The notes below the pieces were generated by a model. The model saw only the letters and a program-made list of their open reading frames with translations. It ran no database searches and was not told the origin of the DNA. The position numbers were made by a program, and so were the translations under genes. Below are positions 26,371-33,734 of a stretch of 64,000 nt of DNA, one piece after another. The stretch lies in contig CALIDI010000037.1 of the NCBI GenBank assembly GCA_938023035.1, positions 1 to 64,000 of the forward strand, in the 5' to 3' direction. This DNA comes from an uncultured Leptolyngbyaceae cyanobacterium (GTDB lineage: Bacteria; Cyanobacteriota; Cyanobacteriia; Leptolyngbyales; Leptolyngbyaceae). Every line of letters starts with the position of its first letter. Within the stretch, counting starts at the first letter, position 1.

Positions 26371-28515
26371 ATGGCAACGTTTTTACTAGAAGTCGGTACC
26401 GAAGAGTTACCCGCCGATTTTATTGATGCGGGGTTGGCGCAGTGGCGATCGCGCATTCCGGCTGCCCTAGCCGCTGCCTATCTCACCCCAGCTAGCATCG
26501 AATATTATGGAACCCCTCGGCGCTTAGCGGTGTTGATCAAGGGCTTGCCAGAACGCCAACCCGACCAGGTGGAAGAAGTCAAAGGCCCACCGGTGCAGGC
26601 TGCTTTTAAGGAAGGGAAACCGACTCCAGCGGCGACAGGGTTTGCTCAAAAACAAGGGGTTGAGGTTAGTGCTTTAGAAGTGCGATCAACGGAGAAAGGG
26701 GAGTTTGTCTTTGCCCACAAAACCGTTGTGGGGCAACCTCTTATAGCCGTTTTGCCTGGTTTGGTAACAGCCTGGGTAACTCAGCTAGAAGGGCGGCGCT
26801 TCATGCGTTGGGCCGATGGGGAGTTGCGGTTTCCTCGCCCAATTCGTTGGCTGGTGTCGCTGCTAGATGCGGAAATTGTGCCCCTGGAGTTAACGAATGC
26901 CTCTCAATCCGTGCGGAGCGATCGCACCTCCTTTGGGCATCGAGTACTGCATCCTGGAACGGTAGAAATTGCCGAGGCCGCCGCCTATGTCAGCACCCTC
27001 CAGGCTGCTTTTGTCGAGGTTGACCCAGACCAACGGCAGGCAAACATTGAAGCCCAGACCAAAGCCGCCGCTCAGAAAGTAGGAGGAGTTGCTGTCATTA
27101 ATCCCGGCCTGTTGCGAGAAGTGACCAACCTAGTGGAGTGGCCAACAGCCGTTGTCGGCCAGTTTGACCCTGAGTTTTTAGAATTGCCGCCGGAGGTCAT
27201 CATCACGGAAATGGAGAGTCACCAACGCTACTTTCCGCTACGCCGCCGAGCAGAATCGCCAGAATTGCTGCCCTACTTTATTACGATCTCAAACGGTGAT
27301 CCGGCCAAATCTGCAATTATTGCCGAAGGCAATGGTCGGGTGATTCGAGCACGGCTTTCAGACGGTAAGTTTTTCTACGAGGCTGATCGTGCTCAACCCC
27401 TAGAGCACTACCTGCACCGGCTGGAGACGGTGACCTTTCAAGCTGATCTTGGCTCGATGCGGGCAAAGGTTGACCGCATTCAGCAAATTGCGGCTGAGAT
27501 TACAGCCCAGATTCCTCAGGCAGATGCCGCGATCATTCAACGGGCAGCGCTATTGTGCAAAGCCGATTTGGTGACCCAGATGGTGGGTGAGTTTCCTGAA
27601 TTACAGGGAATTATGGGAGAAACCTATGCCCGCCACAGTGGGGAACCGGAGGCTGTAGCAGTGGCGATCGCCGAGCACTATTTGCCCCGGGGGGCGGGCG
27701 ATCGTCTGCCTGCGACCTTGCCTGGCCAAATCGTTGGGATTGCGGATCGGCTCGATACCCTTGTTTCCATCTTTGGTTTGGGTCTGTTGCCCAGCGGTTC
27801 TTCTGACCCGTTTGCCCTACGGCGAGCCGCCAATGCTATTGTTAGCATTACCTGGGCTGCCTGTTTACCTTTAAACCTGTCTGCTTTATTAAATCAGGTC
27901 ACCGCTACCTTTACCCAAACCTTTGCGGGAGTCAGCAAACTTTCCTTGGTTGAACTGCGGCAGCAATTGCAGGAGTTTTTTTTGCAGCGCCTGCGAACCC
28001 TCTTAATCGAAGACCACCAGATTGATTACGACCTGGTGAATGCAGTAATAGGGGAGAATGACCCGGAATACGCCGAACGGGCACTGGCGAACCTGGGGGA
28101 TCTCCGCGATCGCGCCTTTTATCTGCAAAGTCTCCGTCAGGAGGGAACTCTGGCCCAGATTTATGAAACCGTCAATCGAGCTTCGCGGTTGTCAACAAAG
28201 GGCAACCTCGACCCGCAGCAGCGCGATCCTAAACCAGTGATTCAACCTGCGCTCTTTCAAAAAGACTCTGAGCGGGCCTTTTATGAGGCTTTACAAAAGC
28301 TCCACCAGCAAATGCAGGGCAGCCAAGATTACCGCCAGCTAGTAACTGCCCTAGAGGAAATTACCCCCACGGTAAGCCGCTTCTTTGACGGCTCTGACAG
28401 CGTCATGGTCATGGATGACAACCCAGAGATTCAACAAAATCGCCTCAACTTACTGGGTCTTTTAAGGAACCATACCCGTCTTTTGGCAGATTTTAGTGCG
28501 ATTGTTAAGGGATAA
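26371..28515 (+). CDS. glyS: Glycyl-tRNA synthetase beta subunit
   Basis: The 714-residue protein matches GlyS over its full length: [18 protein letters not shown] at the N-terminus, [49 protein letters not shown], the HD-like core [45 protein letters not shown], and the C-terminal anticodon-binding-like region ending in [14 protein letters not shown]. It works with GlyQ as an alpha2beta2 enzyme charging tRNA-Gly. glyQ is not in the window. Nothing is fused or missing. Confidence 0.98.
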
Positions 28516-29447: not shown

Positions 29448-31067
29448 TCAGAAGCTTGATTTAAGCTGGGCTAGTTGCTCTTCGGCGATCGCGTACCAGA
29501 CTTGCCCAAAGGTATTGGGAGTCAGTCTTTTGCCCTGCATTTCTGGAAACAGTTGATAAAAGCGGGCATCGGCGGCAGAGTCAAGACGCTGGCTGGTAGA
29601 AGTGGTTTCCCCCAGTTGACGCAGCCAAGCGGCATAGTCTTCACGACGGTAGCGTCCCAGTTTGGTGCGGGTAGCTGGGGTGAGTTGCTCTAGGCGAGCT
29701 ATCAGGGAATTGGCGATTTGGTTCCACTCGGTTTGGAACTGGGCCTGTTGGGCGTTTTCAGTTGAAGCCTGGGCACGTAGCTGGGGATATTTTTCGTAGA
29801 ATGGCTCATTCACAAGTTGGGTAAAAAAGGTGTAATCCACTCCTAACTGACCTATGCGATCGCTCAAATGATTGGATGGGGTTTCCGTCGGCTGGCTGGC
29901 TGGCTGATTAGGGGCTGGCTGCACAGATGAGGTTGGAGCGGGTGAACCTCCGCCCAGGGAAAGGGGTTGGACGGGTTTTGGGAAAACACCTCTCCAGGTC
30001 GTTGCAACGCGCCAGCCAATCACACTGAGCAGCAAGATTATCCCCGCGCCCATCAGCAGCGAGGCGACCGTATCCCCACCAGGCGATCGCGCCAGCCCTG
30101 ACCTGTTAGCTTGCACTGGTTTAGGGCGAGGCGGTCTGGGTGCCACTGGCCGAGGGGTACTGGAGAGGGCCGTGTGGGGTGACACTGGGGGCAGAGGCGC
30201 AGGCGCATCGGTCCCTGACCAGGCGGCAGCCTGGAGTAAAGGCTGCAACCACCGAGAGATTTCCATAGCAGAGGTGGGGCGTTGTTGTACCTCCGGAGAG
30301 ACCATGCGCCTTAGCAGTTGGCGTAAACCAGGGCTGATGTGAACAGCGGGTTCCCAGATGATGGTCTGTGTTTCTGGGTTGTAGAGTTCTTCCAGAGGGC
30401 AACCCGCTAATAGGGCGATCGCGGTCATGCCCAGAGCATACAAATCACTCACCGGGCAGGGGGTGCCCCGGAGTTGTTCGGGTGGAGTGTAGCCCCACTC
30501 CCCAAGAGCTACAACCGCATCAACCGGGTGCAACTCCAACTGGGCAACCAACTCATAAACCAGCCCAAAATTCACTAGTATGGGCAGATGGTCTTCCTCT
30601 CGTTGGATTAAGCTTTTGGGAGTGACATTGCGGTGTACCACCCCCTGACTGTGAAGGTAATGTAACACCGGCAAAATCTGGGCGATCAGGTTCAAAACCT
30701 CTAACTCAGAAAAAGCCTGCCCACTCTGCTGGCACTCTTGCAATAGCACCTGATAGCTTTTTCCCTCCACATAATCCCGCACCCAAAAGAGTCGATTATC
30801 CTGGGCGATCAGTGCCTGATAGCTGGGCAACTGAGGATGCCTCAAGCGATAAAGAATAGCCGCCTTTTGATTAAATTGTTGCCAGCGCTGGTGCAGAAAG
30901 TCTGGATCCCGCTGTCGAGGCAAAAATTCTTTCAGGATGCACAGCGTATTAGAACGCTGCTGATCCCGTGCCAGGTAGGTTTGCCCAAAGTGAGTTCGCC
31001 CTGCTGCGCCCACAAGGCGGTAGCGGTCTTGCAGTAGGGTTCCAGTAGGGACGGGGAGAACTTGCAT
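29448..31067 (-). CDS. Predicted pseudokinase of the cyanobacterial Ser/Thr kinase family
   Basis: The protein has 539 residues: a kinase-like domain (about 10-280), a proline-rich linker, one membrane helix (about 335-352, LLMGAGIILLLSVIGWRV) and an extracytoplasmic C-terminal domain (about 415-539). The VAIK lysine is kept (Lys46), but the catalytic loop reads HRNVTPKS (145-152). HRD Asp becomes Asn147, the Mg-binding Asn becomes Ser152, DFG becomes NFG (166-168), the alpha-C Glu position is Lys68, and the glycine loop is distorted (GAAGRTHFG). Phosphotransfer is unlikely. It lies 420 bp below the intact paralogue on the same strand and shares its C-terminal domain, which suggests a regulatory partner. 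Confidence 0.88.
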   Translation of the reverse strand: MQVLPVPTGTLLQDRYRLVGAAGRTHFGQTYLARDQQRSNTLCILKEFLPRQRDPDFLHQRWQQFNQKAAILYRLRHPQLPSYQALIAQDNRLFWVRDYVEGKSYQVLLQECQQSGQAFSELEVLNLIAQILPVLHYLHSQGVVHRNVTPKSLIQREEDHLPILVNFGLVYELVAQLELHPVDAVVALGEWGYTPPEQLRGTPCPVSDLYALGMTAIALLAGCPLEELYNPETQTIIWEPAVHISPGLRQLLRRMVSPEVQQRPTSAMEISRWLQPLLQAAAWSGTDAPAPLPPVSPHTALSSTPRPVAPRPPRPKPVQANRSGLARSPGGDTVASLLMGAGIILLLSVIGWRVATTWRGVFPKPVQPLSLGGGSPAPTSSVQPAPNQPASQPTETPSNHLSDRIGQLGVDYTFFTQLVNEPFYEKYPQLRAQASTENAQQAQFQTEWNQIANSLIARLEQLTPATRTKLGRYRREDYAAWLRQLGETTSTSQRLDSAADARFYQLFPEMQGKRLTPNTFGQVWYAIAEEQLAQLKSSF

Positions 31068-31149
31068 TCAATACCTCCAGTGGTGTCGGAGCATATCATT
31101 TTGGATGGTAGATCTCTAAGTTAAGATTCTTAAATGCACAATCTAACCG

Positions 31150-31270
31150 TAGACACCTGATTGAAAACGGGATTGAGGCTAAAAGGCGCAGGGGTGGAAC
31201 CTTTGGCTGCGGGCGGCATGCCCCCATTTTTCTCTCCCAATGAACTCAGCAATCGAGCGATAGCAATATC
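31150..31270 (+). repeat. Dispersed repeat F3, copy 5
   Basis: It contains ATTGAGGCT..GGCGCAGGGGTGGAAC..GCGGGCGGCATGCCCCC..CCAATGAACTCAGCAATCGAGCGAT. The terminal HIP1 is mutated to GCGATAGC. It lies between the two kinase genes. Confidence 0.68.
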
Positions 31271-31487
31271 AATCTTTGGGAGTGAGGAGTATGGAATGTT
31301 GCAGGAAGGCATCGACTGCTGCTTCCTGTCTAAGAGAGTTGCGTGGAGATTGATGTTGTTGGTATAATTGTACTATATTTGCTGTTTAATAAATGACTAA
31401 TTCTAAAAAAGTCAGAATTGTTATCAGCCTTCTGGAGGAAGTGTTGAAGGGAAGGCGGTTCGGTTTAATGGTTAAAGCTCTCCGGGT

Positions 31488-33542
31488 TTATTCCTTCTTT
31501 GTAAGGCTTATTTCTTCCTCATGGGGCGAGTTGGAATCTATCGGGTTGTCGGTCGTAGGTGATGGTGAGGTGGGGGGGATGGGTTCGGCAATAACCTCGA
31601 GGGCGTAATCACTTGTTTCGGTCGAGTCGGCCACTACCACTACTTCATATAAACCTGCACTGGACAGTTGGCCTGCCCATTCTGTATTGGCGCTATCTTC
31701 GAGCAGGGGAGGGTGTTGACTGGTGGGCGGGTAAAAGGAGAGTAAAACCCCTTTTTCGGGGGCTTGCAGATTGAGTTGAACGGTTTGATCCTTTCTTAGG
31801 TCAATCAGATAGGCTTGGCCTGTTCCCGGTTGCAGGCGACCAGTGGTCTGTAAACTCGTCTTCCCTGGGGCAAATTGTAGACGCTTCAAGGTTTTGCCTG
31901 CTTTGAGGTCGGCTAGCTGATCGGTGGCGATCGCCTGCCAGAGCTGCTCCATTGAGTCTGAGCGTCGGCCCTGACGAGGTTGCTCAGGCATCAGGTGAAT
32001 AAACTGGGCATCTGTCAGGTCATTCAGGGCGCGACTACTGAGGTTGAGCTTGTTCACTTCAATGCGGCGCTTTTCTAAATCGGTCTTTGTATAGCTGCCT
32101 AGGCGCGATCGCGCTGGTTTGCTTAAGCGGGCTAGGCGCTTCAGATAGGCGGCGGCAATTTCATCCCACTCTTTGCGATGGGCGGCATCCTCGGGTTTGC
32201 GGGTGAGGCTACGGCCAATTGGATTTTTAGCGTAAAATTCTTGATTGACTAGGGTGGTCAAAAACTGGGGCGGAACCCCTAAGGCTTCTTGCTCTTGAAT
32301 CAACGCAGCTTTGCGTTTTTGTTCTTCAGCCGAGAAAGCTGGTTCGGGGGGAATATTGTTAGCTGACTCTGAGTCCGTCGGTGTTTCTGGAGTGGGAGCG
32401 ACCGCTGGCGGCCGCTTCACAGCGCGATCGCCCGCATACCAGATCCCAACGGCTACCCCTGTGAGTAAAACCCCGATACTTAGTAAACGTAGGCCCAATC
32501 GTTTTAACGCAGAACGGGGGGCGCTCACTGGGGTCGGCGCTGTCAGGGTTGCAGTTGCTTCTACCTGCCAGGAAGGCAAGTGCAGCCGTTCTCCCGGAGG
32601 AGTACCACTCATTTCTAGACCCAGGGCTTGCATGACGGTTGTCGCTGAGGGGTAGCGCTGATCTGGTGCCGAGCTGAGCATGCGCTCCAGCACATTTTGG
32701 AGCTTGGGGCTGAGGTTAACCCATGACTGCCAAGAAGAGCGATCGCGCCCTAACAACTCCTGAGGTTCTCGCCCGGTTAGCAGCACTAGCAAAGTCATCG
32801 CCAGGGCATATAAATCACTATGGGGATAGGCTTCGCCATTGCCCATTTGTTCTGGCGGGGCGTACCCTACTTTGCCTAACACGGTCGGGTTGCTAGGTAA
32901 AACGGCTCCCGGCGTTTGAGAAATTACCGTTGCGGCAATTTGCTTAACACCGCCAAAATCAATTAGCACTGGTAAGCCATCGCTGCGACGACAAATCAGA
33001 TTATCGGGTGAAAGGTCACGATGGACAATTCCCAGAGAATGCAGGTAAGCCAGCACCGGTAGAAGCTGACGTAACAGCGTGAGAACTTCTGCTTCACTGA
33101 AGCACTGCCCCTGCTGCTGGCGGTGGCGCAAAAGGGCCAGGTAAGTCTCACCCTCGACATAGTCTTGCACCAGAAAAAGCTGTCCGCCGCCAATGTCTGC
33201 TCGAAAAATCTCGCGAAAACGAGGAATCTGAGGATGCTCTAGGCGGTAAAGCACGCCAGCCTCTCGCTGAAATAATTCCTCGGCTTTGTTCAAAGCTTCG
33301 GTACCCTGCACCTGAGGCGCAAATTCTTTGAGCACACACAGTTCGCGAAACCGATTGGTGTCTTCGGCCAGGTAGGTGCGCCCAAAGCCCCCCTGCCCAA
33401 GTTGGCGCAACACCTGGTAGCGACCGCCTAAAAGCCCCAGGCTTGCCGCCGGGGTAGAAGTCATCAAGGCCTCACCACAGAGCCGACAAAAGCGGTGATC
33501 TTGAGGGTTTTCATGGCCCCGGCTGCAATAGAAAACTGTCAC
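31488..33542 (-). CDS. Membrane-anchored Ser/Thr protein kinase with zinc ribbon
   Basis: From GTG 33542 (preceded by GAGG 8 nt away) the product has 684 residues. ATG 33566 would add eight. It has an N-terminal zinc ribbon (VFYCSRGHENP..FCRLCGEAL), a kinase domain (about 35-310) with GQGGFGRTYLAED, the VLKEF lysine, the REAGVL glutamate, HRDLSPDN and DFG all intact, a membrane helix near 365-380, a domain shared with the downstream pseudokinase (about 430-560), and a C-terminal beta-rich part resembling a PPC domain. The active kinase would phosphorylate cytoplasmic targets in response to an outside cue. The pseudokinase paralogue follows. Confidence 0.92.
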   Translation of the reverse strand: MTVFYCSRGHENPQDHRFCRLCGEALMTSTPAASLGLLGGRYQVLRQLGQGGFGRTYLAEDTNRFRELCVLKEFAPQVQGTEALNKAEELFQREAGVLYRLEHPQIPRFREIFRADIGGGQLFLVQDYVEGETYLALLRHRQQQGQCFSEAEVLTLLRQLLPVLAYLHSLGIVHRDLSPDNLICRRSDGLPVLIDFGGVKQIAATVISQTPGAVLPSNPTVLGKVGYAPPEQMGNGEAYPHSDLYALAMTLLVLLTGREPQELLGRDRSSWQSWVNLSPKLQNVLERMLSSAPDQRYPSATTVMQALGLEMSGTPPGERLHLPSWQVEATATLTAPTPVSAPRSALKRLGLRLLSIGVLLTGVAVGIWYAGDRAVKRPPAVAPTPETPTDSESANNIPPEPAFSAEEQKRKAALIQEQEALGVPPQFLTTLVNQEFYAKNPIGRSLTRKPEDAAHRKEWDEIAAAYLKRLARLSKPARSRLGSYTKTDLEKRRIEVNKLNLSSRALNDLTDAQFIHLMPEQPRQGRRSDSMEQLWQAIATDQLADLKAGKTLKRLQFAPGKTSLQTTGRLQPGTGQAYLIDLRKDQTVQLNLQAPEKGVLLSFYPPTSQHPPLLEDSANTEWAGQLSSAGLYEVVVVADSTETSDYALEVIAEPIPPTSPSPTTDNPIDSNSPHEEEISLTKKE

Positions 33543-33734
33543 GCGATCGCCCTCACAGCTTACCATTTTTATTTTGCGTCAGGATGATGGTTATGGGCGA
33601 AGGGAAAGAAGGGTGAGTCGGCAGGCGAAGCTTTGAACTTTAAACGAAGCGGGGTTGCATCAGGTGGGCTTTGTCTGAAGGGTTTGCTGATGCTGTGGCA
33701 GATCCTTCTAATCGATAGCCTATTACCTTTGCAG

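Follow-up and report, generated by a model that had tools for sequence, protein, structure and literature searches.

A conserved pseudokinase, non-catalytic by motif, beside an active-type Ser/Thr kinase paralogue in a Leptolyngbyaceae cyanobacterium

The window considered here is a stretch of 64,000 nucleotides (positions 1 to 64,000 of contig CALIDI010000037.1, GenBank assembly GCA_938023035.1) from an uncultured Leptolyngbyaceae cyanobacterium, whose draft genome (G000) comprises 4.75 Mb in 62 contigs. It carries, on the minus strand, two complete open reading frames (ORFs): an upstream gene (31488-33566) for an active-type Ser/Thr kinase of 692 amino acids (aa), in which every catalytic residue is kept, and a downstream gene (29448-31067) for a pseudokinase paralogue of 539 aa. 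The active kinase starts with a Cys-rich, ribbon-like stretch, whose match to the Pfam family Zn_Ribbon_1 lies below the cut-off of that family, and continues with the kinase domain (residues ~50-313), a hydrophobic helix (~357-375), a C-terminal helical domain (~420-555; 31902-32309) and a tail. The pseudokinase consists of a kinase-like domain (residues ~11-285; 30213-31037), a membrane helix predicted by AlphaFold2 and hydropathy (residues 333-358 in the model; 29994-30071) and a C-terminal helical domain (residues 399-536; 29460-29873). Hydropathy peaks at residues 333-351 of the pseudokinase (2.26) and 357-375 of the active kinase, in both cases after the kinase domain. Aligned from the kinase domain through the C-terminal domain (549 columns), the two proteins share 36 % identity; for their helical domains alone, the figure is 33 %. 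A gap of 420 bp (31068-31487) separates the genes, and with this spacing a shared transcript is not obvious within the window; the gap gave no promoter evidence beyond two weak sigma-70-like matches, both on the minus strand.

On alignment of the two proteins, most of the catalytic motifs were found to be altered in the pseudokinase. The Gly-loop reads LGQGGFG in the active kinase and AGRTHFG in the pseudokinase, the alpha-C motif changes from FQREAGVL (E102) to FNQKAAIL (K68), the catalytic loop from HRDLSPDN (D184, N189) to HRNVTPKS (N147, S152), with Ser in place of the Mg-binding Asn, and the DFG site from IDFGG (D203) to VNFGL (N166). The beta3 Lys is retained (CVLKEF, K80, against CILKEF, K46). 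Alignment and hydropathy thus confirm the first-pass annotation of this DNA, which had described an active kinase next to a pseudokinase paralogue with HRN, Ser and NFG, a changed alpha-C position, a kept lysine, a membrane helix and a common C-terminal domain. To these can be added the broken Gly-loop, the loss of the TxLGKxGY Thr from a shortened activation segment, and the 420-bp gap. Where a pseudokinase is defined by the loss of at least one among the beta3 Lys, the HRD Asp and the DFG Asp, as in PMC12599244, the protein qualifies with two of the three residues lost (Asn147 for the HRD Asp and Asn166 for the DFG Asp), Lys46 being kept.

According to the predicted structure, the Hanks-type kinase fold is retained in the pseudokinase. 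AlphaFold2, run with a 32-row alignment, modelled the 539-aa protein with a mean predicted local distance difference test (pLDDT) score of 83.7, most linkers falling below 50; the block means of the pseudokinase domain range from 69 to 98, and the last block alone is under 84. All 50 top rows from Foldseek, and likewise from VIA-align, match the kinase domain of the pseudokinase; for its top row, a PknG kinase domain (7mxj), VIA-align gives a Z of 25.3 and a root-mean-square deviation of 2.9 over 253 residues, rows within one Z unit being regarded as tied. The Pfam family Pkinase matches the pseudokinase at 81.2 bits and the active kinase at 117.1 bits (gathering score 31.7), and the only two Pfam families matched by the pseudokinase are both kinase families. 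A further kinase paralogue of the same genome (L021, G000:C53:23916-24686) has GFV aligned at the DFG site and is a possible second pseudokinase.

Relatives were drawn from profile searches of genomes and from named contigs, and the residue counts for the pseudokinase group refer to the alignment of a 119-row kinase tree, in which three pseudokinase subgroups of 4, 16 and 21 rows form a group of 41. The tree leaves out duplicates, kinase stretches shorter than 230 or longer than 400 residues, loci of the window's own genome (L013-L030), loci from L181 onward, the outgroup L007, and L006, L009, L010, L012, L099, L100, L103-L105, L111-L115 and L117-L119. Motifs of single loci were read, by contrast, from rows added to a separate fixed alignment, in which the beta3 Lys of some members of the genus g7 was misaligned. 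The catalytic Asp is present in 0 of the 41 rows, where it is replaced by Asn (36), Ser (2), Ala (1), His (1) or Tyr (1), and the metal-binding Asn is kept in a single row. At the DFG Asp site, Asp occurs in 5 rows, Asn in 17, Glu in 9 and Gln in 5. The alpha-C Glu is kept in 20 rows, and the site of the beta3 Lys holds Lys in 20, Glu in 16, Gln in 4 and Arg in 1, the lysine being kept in 19 of the 21 rows of the main subgroup and in the window protein. The conserved variant is therefore HRN, because the catalytic Asp is gone throughout and Asn takes its place in 36 rows, whereas neither NFG nor the kept lysine extends across the group. Of the features that the first-pass annotation had put forward for comparison with orthologues, HRN thus stands and NFG does not, and the VAIK lysine that it had listed as kept is not a group feature. 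Since the beta3 Lys is so often Glu or Gln, ATP binding is probably dispensable across the group.

Other positions became fixed. Residues R97, K103, S104, L169, L173, L179 and H180 are invariant in all 21 rows of the main subgroup and differ in active kinases. The activation segment of this subgroup is 25-26 residues long, compared with a mean of 33 and a range of 28-47 among 26 active rows. Thr228 of the active kinase is found in 26 of 26 active rows against 3 of 41 pseudokinases. In the genus g7, the stretch around the APE motif is lost in all seven pseudokinases read and the second half of the helical domain is retained; the g7 rows L127-L129, L131, L132, L134 and L135 combine Glu at the beta3 Lys site with absence of the APE stretch.

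The origin of the group was examined in quick trees without bootstrap, from which the motif columns were excluded and ten rows dropped (L179, L138, L130, L110, L102, L108, L109, L106, L178 and the second L123 row); L138 and L130, dropped as unsure or long, are pseudokinases of the group. On these trees the pseudokinase group has a single origin: 39 pseudokinase rows are split from 70 others by one branch with a Shimodaira-Hasegawa-like approximate likelihood ratio test (SH-aLRT) value of 100, and a tree uniting the kinases of the family f25 with its pseudokinases is rejected (approximately unbiased test, p-AU 0.004). A full set of intact motifs, which according to the first-pass annotation would speak against its proposal if seen in orthologues, occurs nowhere in the group. 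Short tandem kinases of Nostoc (L095-L097) were considered as such orthologues and ruled out, as they are placed in the active clade. Degenerate rows also occur outside the group, namely L108 (Asn for the catalytic Asp), L109, L110 (Asn), L179, both L113 rows and the Moorena loci L099 and L103-L105. The four Moorena loci keep HRD, have NLG for DFG, show no visible helical domain, and form an independent degenerate lineage.

The ratio of nonsynonymous to synonymous substitution rates (dN/dS) was obtained for four genome pairs from two genera; for the window's genome and G001, saturation of the silent sites precludes a value. In the lineages measured, purifying selection acts on the pseudokinase domain, with dN/dS of 0.133, 0.094, 0.081 and 0.083, alongside 0.073, 0.038, 0.055 and 0.039 for the kinase domain of the active partner and 0.132, 0.031, 0.095 and 0.117 for the C-terminal domain of the pseudokinase, in the same order of pairs. 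Constraint has shifted to the short activation segment and the clade-specific residues, and is weaker than in the active kinase. The correlation of identities between the two genes (r 0.91) was not used as evidence, since common species history explains it. The pseudokinases read as open frames except in G011 (L139), where two fragments in different frames lie near a contig end and a frameshift is possible; this is the one copy with a possible sign of the frameshifts that the first-pass annotation had named as evidence of decay. Its proposal of selection for a non-catalytic role is upheld by the missing catalytic Asp, the single origin, the purifying selection where measured and the clade-specific invariant residues. 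By its motifs, then, the pseudokinase appears to be a selected, non-catalytic protein with the same architecture as its neighbour.

All 42 genomes of the window's order, which belong to one family, give a match to a profile of the C-terminal domain. By reading of motifs, the pseudokinase is present in 39 of these, and an active kinase of the same clade as the window's in 40, with intact motifs in 38 and a partial reading in two (G017 and G022; the G017 gene ends at a contig end, before the helical domain). Both genes occur together in 37 of the 42 genomes, that is, 37 of the 39 with a pseudokinase also have the active kinase, 35 with intact motifs besides G017 and G022. A same-strand tandem with the active gene before the pseudokinase gene was found in five of the 39 (G000, G001, G002, G012 and G027) and in all three f25 genomes listed (G065, G079 and G091); among named strains, Leptolyngbya sp. 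FACHB-36 (L085) has the pair still adjacent. Given its occurrence in a few genomes of the family and in all three f25 genomes, the tandem is probably ancestral and was later broken up. Conserved neighbours gave no clue to function: among 22 regions compared, no gene family except that of the kinase itself recurs in more than three. In the genus g4, a small gene often comes after the pseudokinase.

The helical domain, when folded alone, is all-helical (pLDDT 92.5, predicted template modelling score, pTM, 0.86), with two similar halves on reading of the model. The window's copy has no Pfam match; other members gave scattered weak ones, the best being FliX with an E-value of 0.00026 in one of 28. 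Sequence search against the PDB gave a best E-value of 0.0098 over 42 positions and Foldseek one of 0.48, which does not by itself make the fold a new one. In a draw of genomes across the class, the domain was found in 79 of 156. Outside the window's family, 63 genomes have it, 48 of them with a single match, and the proteins read there are mostly intact kinases of 500-860 aa. In the family to which the genome of L110 belongs, the domain occurs in 43 of 50 genomes; of the 25 kinase ORFs with the domain that were read there, 14 have Gln at the beta3 Lys site, and several are more degenerate (L238, L239, L247-L252). All 12 short domain ORFs fetched from this family (327-363 aa; L220, L223, L228, L234, L236, L240-L246) are without a kinase domain. 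Non-canonical motifs are also seen in L253-L258 and L179, although HGD and DFG remain in four of these. L176 also has the helical domain without a kinase domain, and in L240 and L176 a hydrophobic helix precedes it. Two ORFs of 369 and 377 aa (L159:1871-2977 and L160:2056-3186, both on the minus strand) join a different N-terminal part to a hydrophobic stretch and the helical domain. In some lineages, then, the domain has persisted beyond the loss of the kinase. The idea that the domain is divided in a complementary way, with the active kinase keeping repeat 1 and the pseudokinase repeat 2 in some genera, was considered and dropped, because weak remnants of repeat 1 remain in some pseudokinases and kinases with a single repeat lie beside the long kinase in G065, G079 and G091.

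Taken together, these observations are consistent with a non-catalytic membrane signalling subunit, a duplicate of a receptor-like kinase which would pair with an intact kinase and set it, and we give this reading a probability of about one half. Duplication of a cyanobacterial receptor-like kinase that carried the uncatalogued helical domain would have produced a membrane pseudokinase, whose helical domain, presumably outside the cytoplasm, may sense or anchor. The pseudokinase would pair with an intact kinase bearing the same domain, through the helical domains, through contacts between the kinase domains or through both. Docked in this manner, it would set the activity or the place of the intact kinase while phosphorylating nothing itself. 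What we infer here is that the two proteins pair, that one regulates the other, and on which side of the membrane the helical domain lies. In a more specific form, which we hold only tentatively and by analogy, the active kinase and its pseudokinase twin would make up a receptor-like heteromer with the same extracytoplasmic sensor domain, similar to ErbB2/ErbB3, within a family defined by that domain, in which the kinase part would have been inactivated or shed more than once.

Several observations weigh against a partnership of the two proteins. As many as 34 of the 39 pseudokinase genomes of the family are without the same-strand tandem, some of which contig ends may hide, and in G018 the two genes lie ~2.5 kb apart on opposite strands. 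The one-contig genome G026 has a pseudokinase and no detected active kinase with the helical domain: it has one domain match at an E-value of up to 0.05, and among its five matches to the active kinase, all of which were read, the domain occurs only in the pseudokinase. G034 is likewise without an active domain kinase, in a genome that is 69 % complete. Conversely, an active kinase with the domain is present in G016, G019 and G041, with a single domain match each even at an E-value of 0.05 and no pseudokinase among the 20 of 58 matches to the pseudokinase profile whose motifs were read. A fixed tie to the neighbour is hard to reconcile with G026 and with genes so scattered in position. The tandem, moreover, needs no inactive member, as both members are intact in the tandems on Nostoc contigs and in the f32 genomes G126 and G134. 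The pseudokinase domain is also less conserved than the active kinase domain in 66 of 66 genome pairs. An allosteric or scaffolding role towards the neighbouring kinase, which the first-pass annotation had raised as a possibility, is a conjecture that the comparison of sequences supports only in part, with few tandems, G026 and the domain in kinase-less proteins on the other side. Each of the Nostoc loci L095, L096 and L097 and of the loci L173 and L180 from the two f32 genomes has a short and a long kinase in tandem, with the helical domain and intact motifs.

The chief alternative places the function in the helical domain and treats the kinase as optional, so that the pseudokinase would act as a receptor, an anchor or an adaptor of the envelope, its kinase fold being a leftover or a docking platform without a tie to any particular neighbour. 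The wide occurrence of the domain in the family of L110, the 12 kinase-less ORFs, the single-copy domain kinases that stray from the motifs (by Gln at the beta3 Lys site, and more so L247-L249, L253-L258 and L179) and the g7 pseudokinases that lost the APE stretch and kept the domain all agree with it, and as the domain occurs elsewhere without any kinase domain, the extracytoplasmic domain may be the part that is conserved. A leftover, however, is not expected to gain invariant residues in the activation segment, as the main subgroup did, and in the four pairs the dN/dS of the pseudokinase domain is comparable to that of its C-terminal domain; we regard this alternative as possible, if doubtful. 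That the protein is still an enzyme, either a weak kinase that works with Asn at the site of the catalytic Asp or an atypical transferase built on a kinase fold, seems unlikely. The beta3 Lys kept in the window protein and in most of the main subgroup would fit such activity, for which SelO and SidJ offer precedents (PMC12599244), as does SpkE, which has no catalytic Asp (PMC2176072) and was reported as inactive first and active later (PMC11863333); against it, the catalytic Asp, the metal-binding Asn, the DFG Asp, the alpha-C Glu and the Gly-loop are all altered in the window protein, and the beta3 Lys has become Glu in 16 of the 41 relatives. A decaying duplicate devoid of function could be suspected from the three genomes in which no pseudokinase was found, from the G011 copy in two frames and from the lost APE stretch of g7. 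It is rejected by the dN/dS of 0.08-0.13 in the measured pairs and by the presence in 39 of 42 genomes, to which the single origin and the fixed clade-specific residues can be added, and is close to refuted for the lineages measured. The non-catalytic signalling subunit thus remains our preferred reading.

A convergent neighbour on the plus strand (26371-28515) is presumably glyS, for the beta subunit of glycyl-tRNA synthetase, judging by its sequence. SpkB is reported to phosphorylate GlyS in Synechocystis (PMC10651672). The position of glyS beside a kinase locus is probably a coincidence in view of that report.

Bacterial pseudokinases have been little studied, according to PMC12599244. None of the papers listed in our literature search dealt with this kinase/pseudokinase pair; an atlas of bacterial kinases outside the search may list the family. 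The pair provides an internal control, since the intact paralogue is built in the same way and has stayed next to the pseudokinase in a few lineages, and together with the natural series across cyanobacteria from intact to kinase-less proteins it makes a role of a bacterial pseudokinase without catalysis directly testable. It also points to a widespread domain without a clear match in the libraries searched (Pfam, PDB and Foldseek).

In ErbB2-ErbB3 and in the JH1-JH2 domains of JAK, a pseudokinase with a changed HRD motif regulates an intact relative or neighbour. The likeness of the window pair to these systems is an analogy, and resemblance in one motif does not amount to kinship. Closer in taxonomy is SpkE (Slr1443) of Synechocystis sp. 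PCC 6803, a Hanks-type protein described as missing the catalytic Asp along with several further residues that are otherwise conserved (PMC2176072), whose activity is disputed (PMC11863333). By its description, SpkE resembles the window pseudokinase as a cyanobacterial Hanks-type protein that lacks the catalytic Asp; it differs in that the 2007 survey placed it in the class cbSTKI-other and not in cbSTKI-TM (PMC2176072), whereas the window pseudokinase has a predicted membrane helix. Three degenerate kinase-like proteins (L247-L249) of 603-629 aa with a hydrophobic helix, each the sole helical-domain protein of its genome and outside the origin tree, are possible relatives of SpkE as far as its description allows.

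Among the pseudokinase families named in PMC12599244 (ActPs1-3, GLW, CP1, DYD and DLHK), ActPs2, GLW and ActPs3/MviN, and likewise EssB/YukC, differ by description from the window pseudokinase in their motif changes and in their taxa (actinobacteria, proteobacteria and Firmicutes), and the parts of that paper which describe them mention no tandem with an active paralogue. CP1 is the family among them that is annotated chiefly from cyanobacteria and proteobacteria, and ~40 % of its members have lost catalytic motifs in varied ways; it is described as linked to COG3899 and free of membrane helices (PMC12599244). The window pseudokinase, which carries the helical C-terminal domain, departs from CP1 by its predicted membrane helix.

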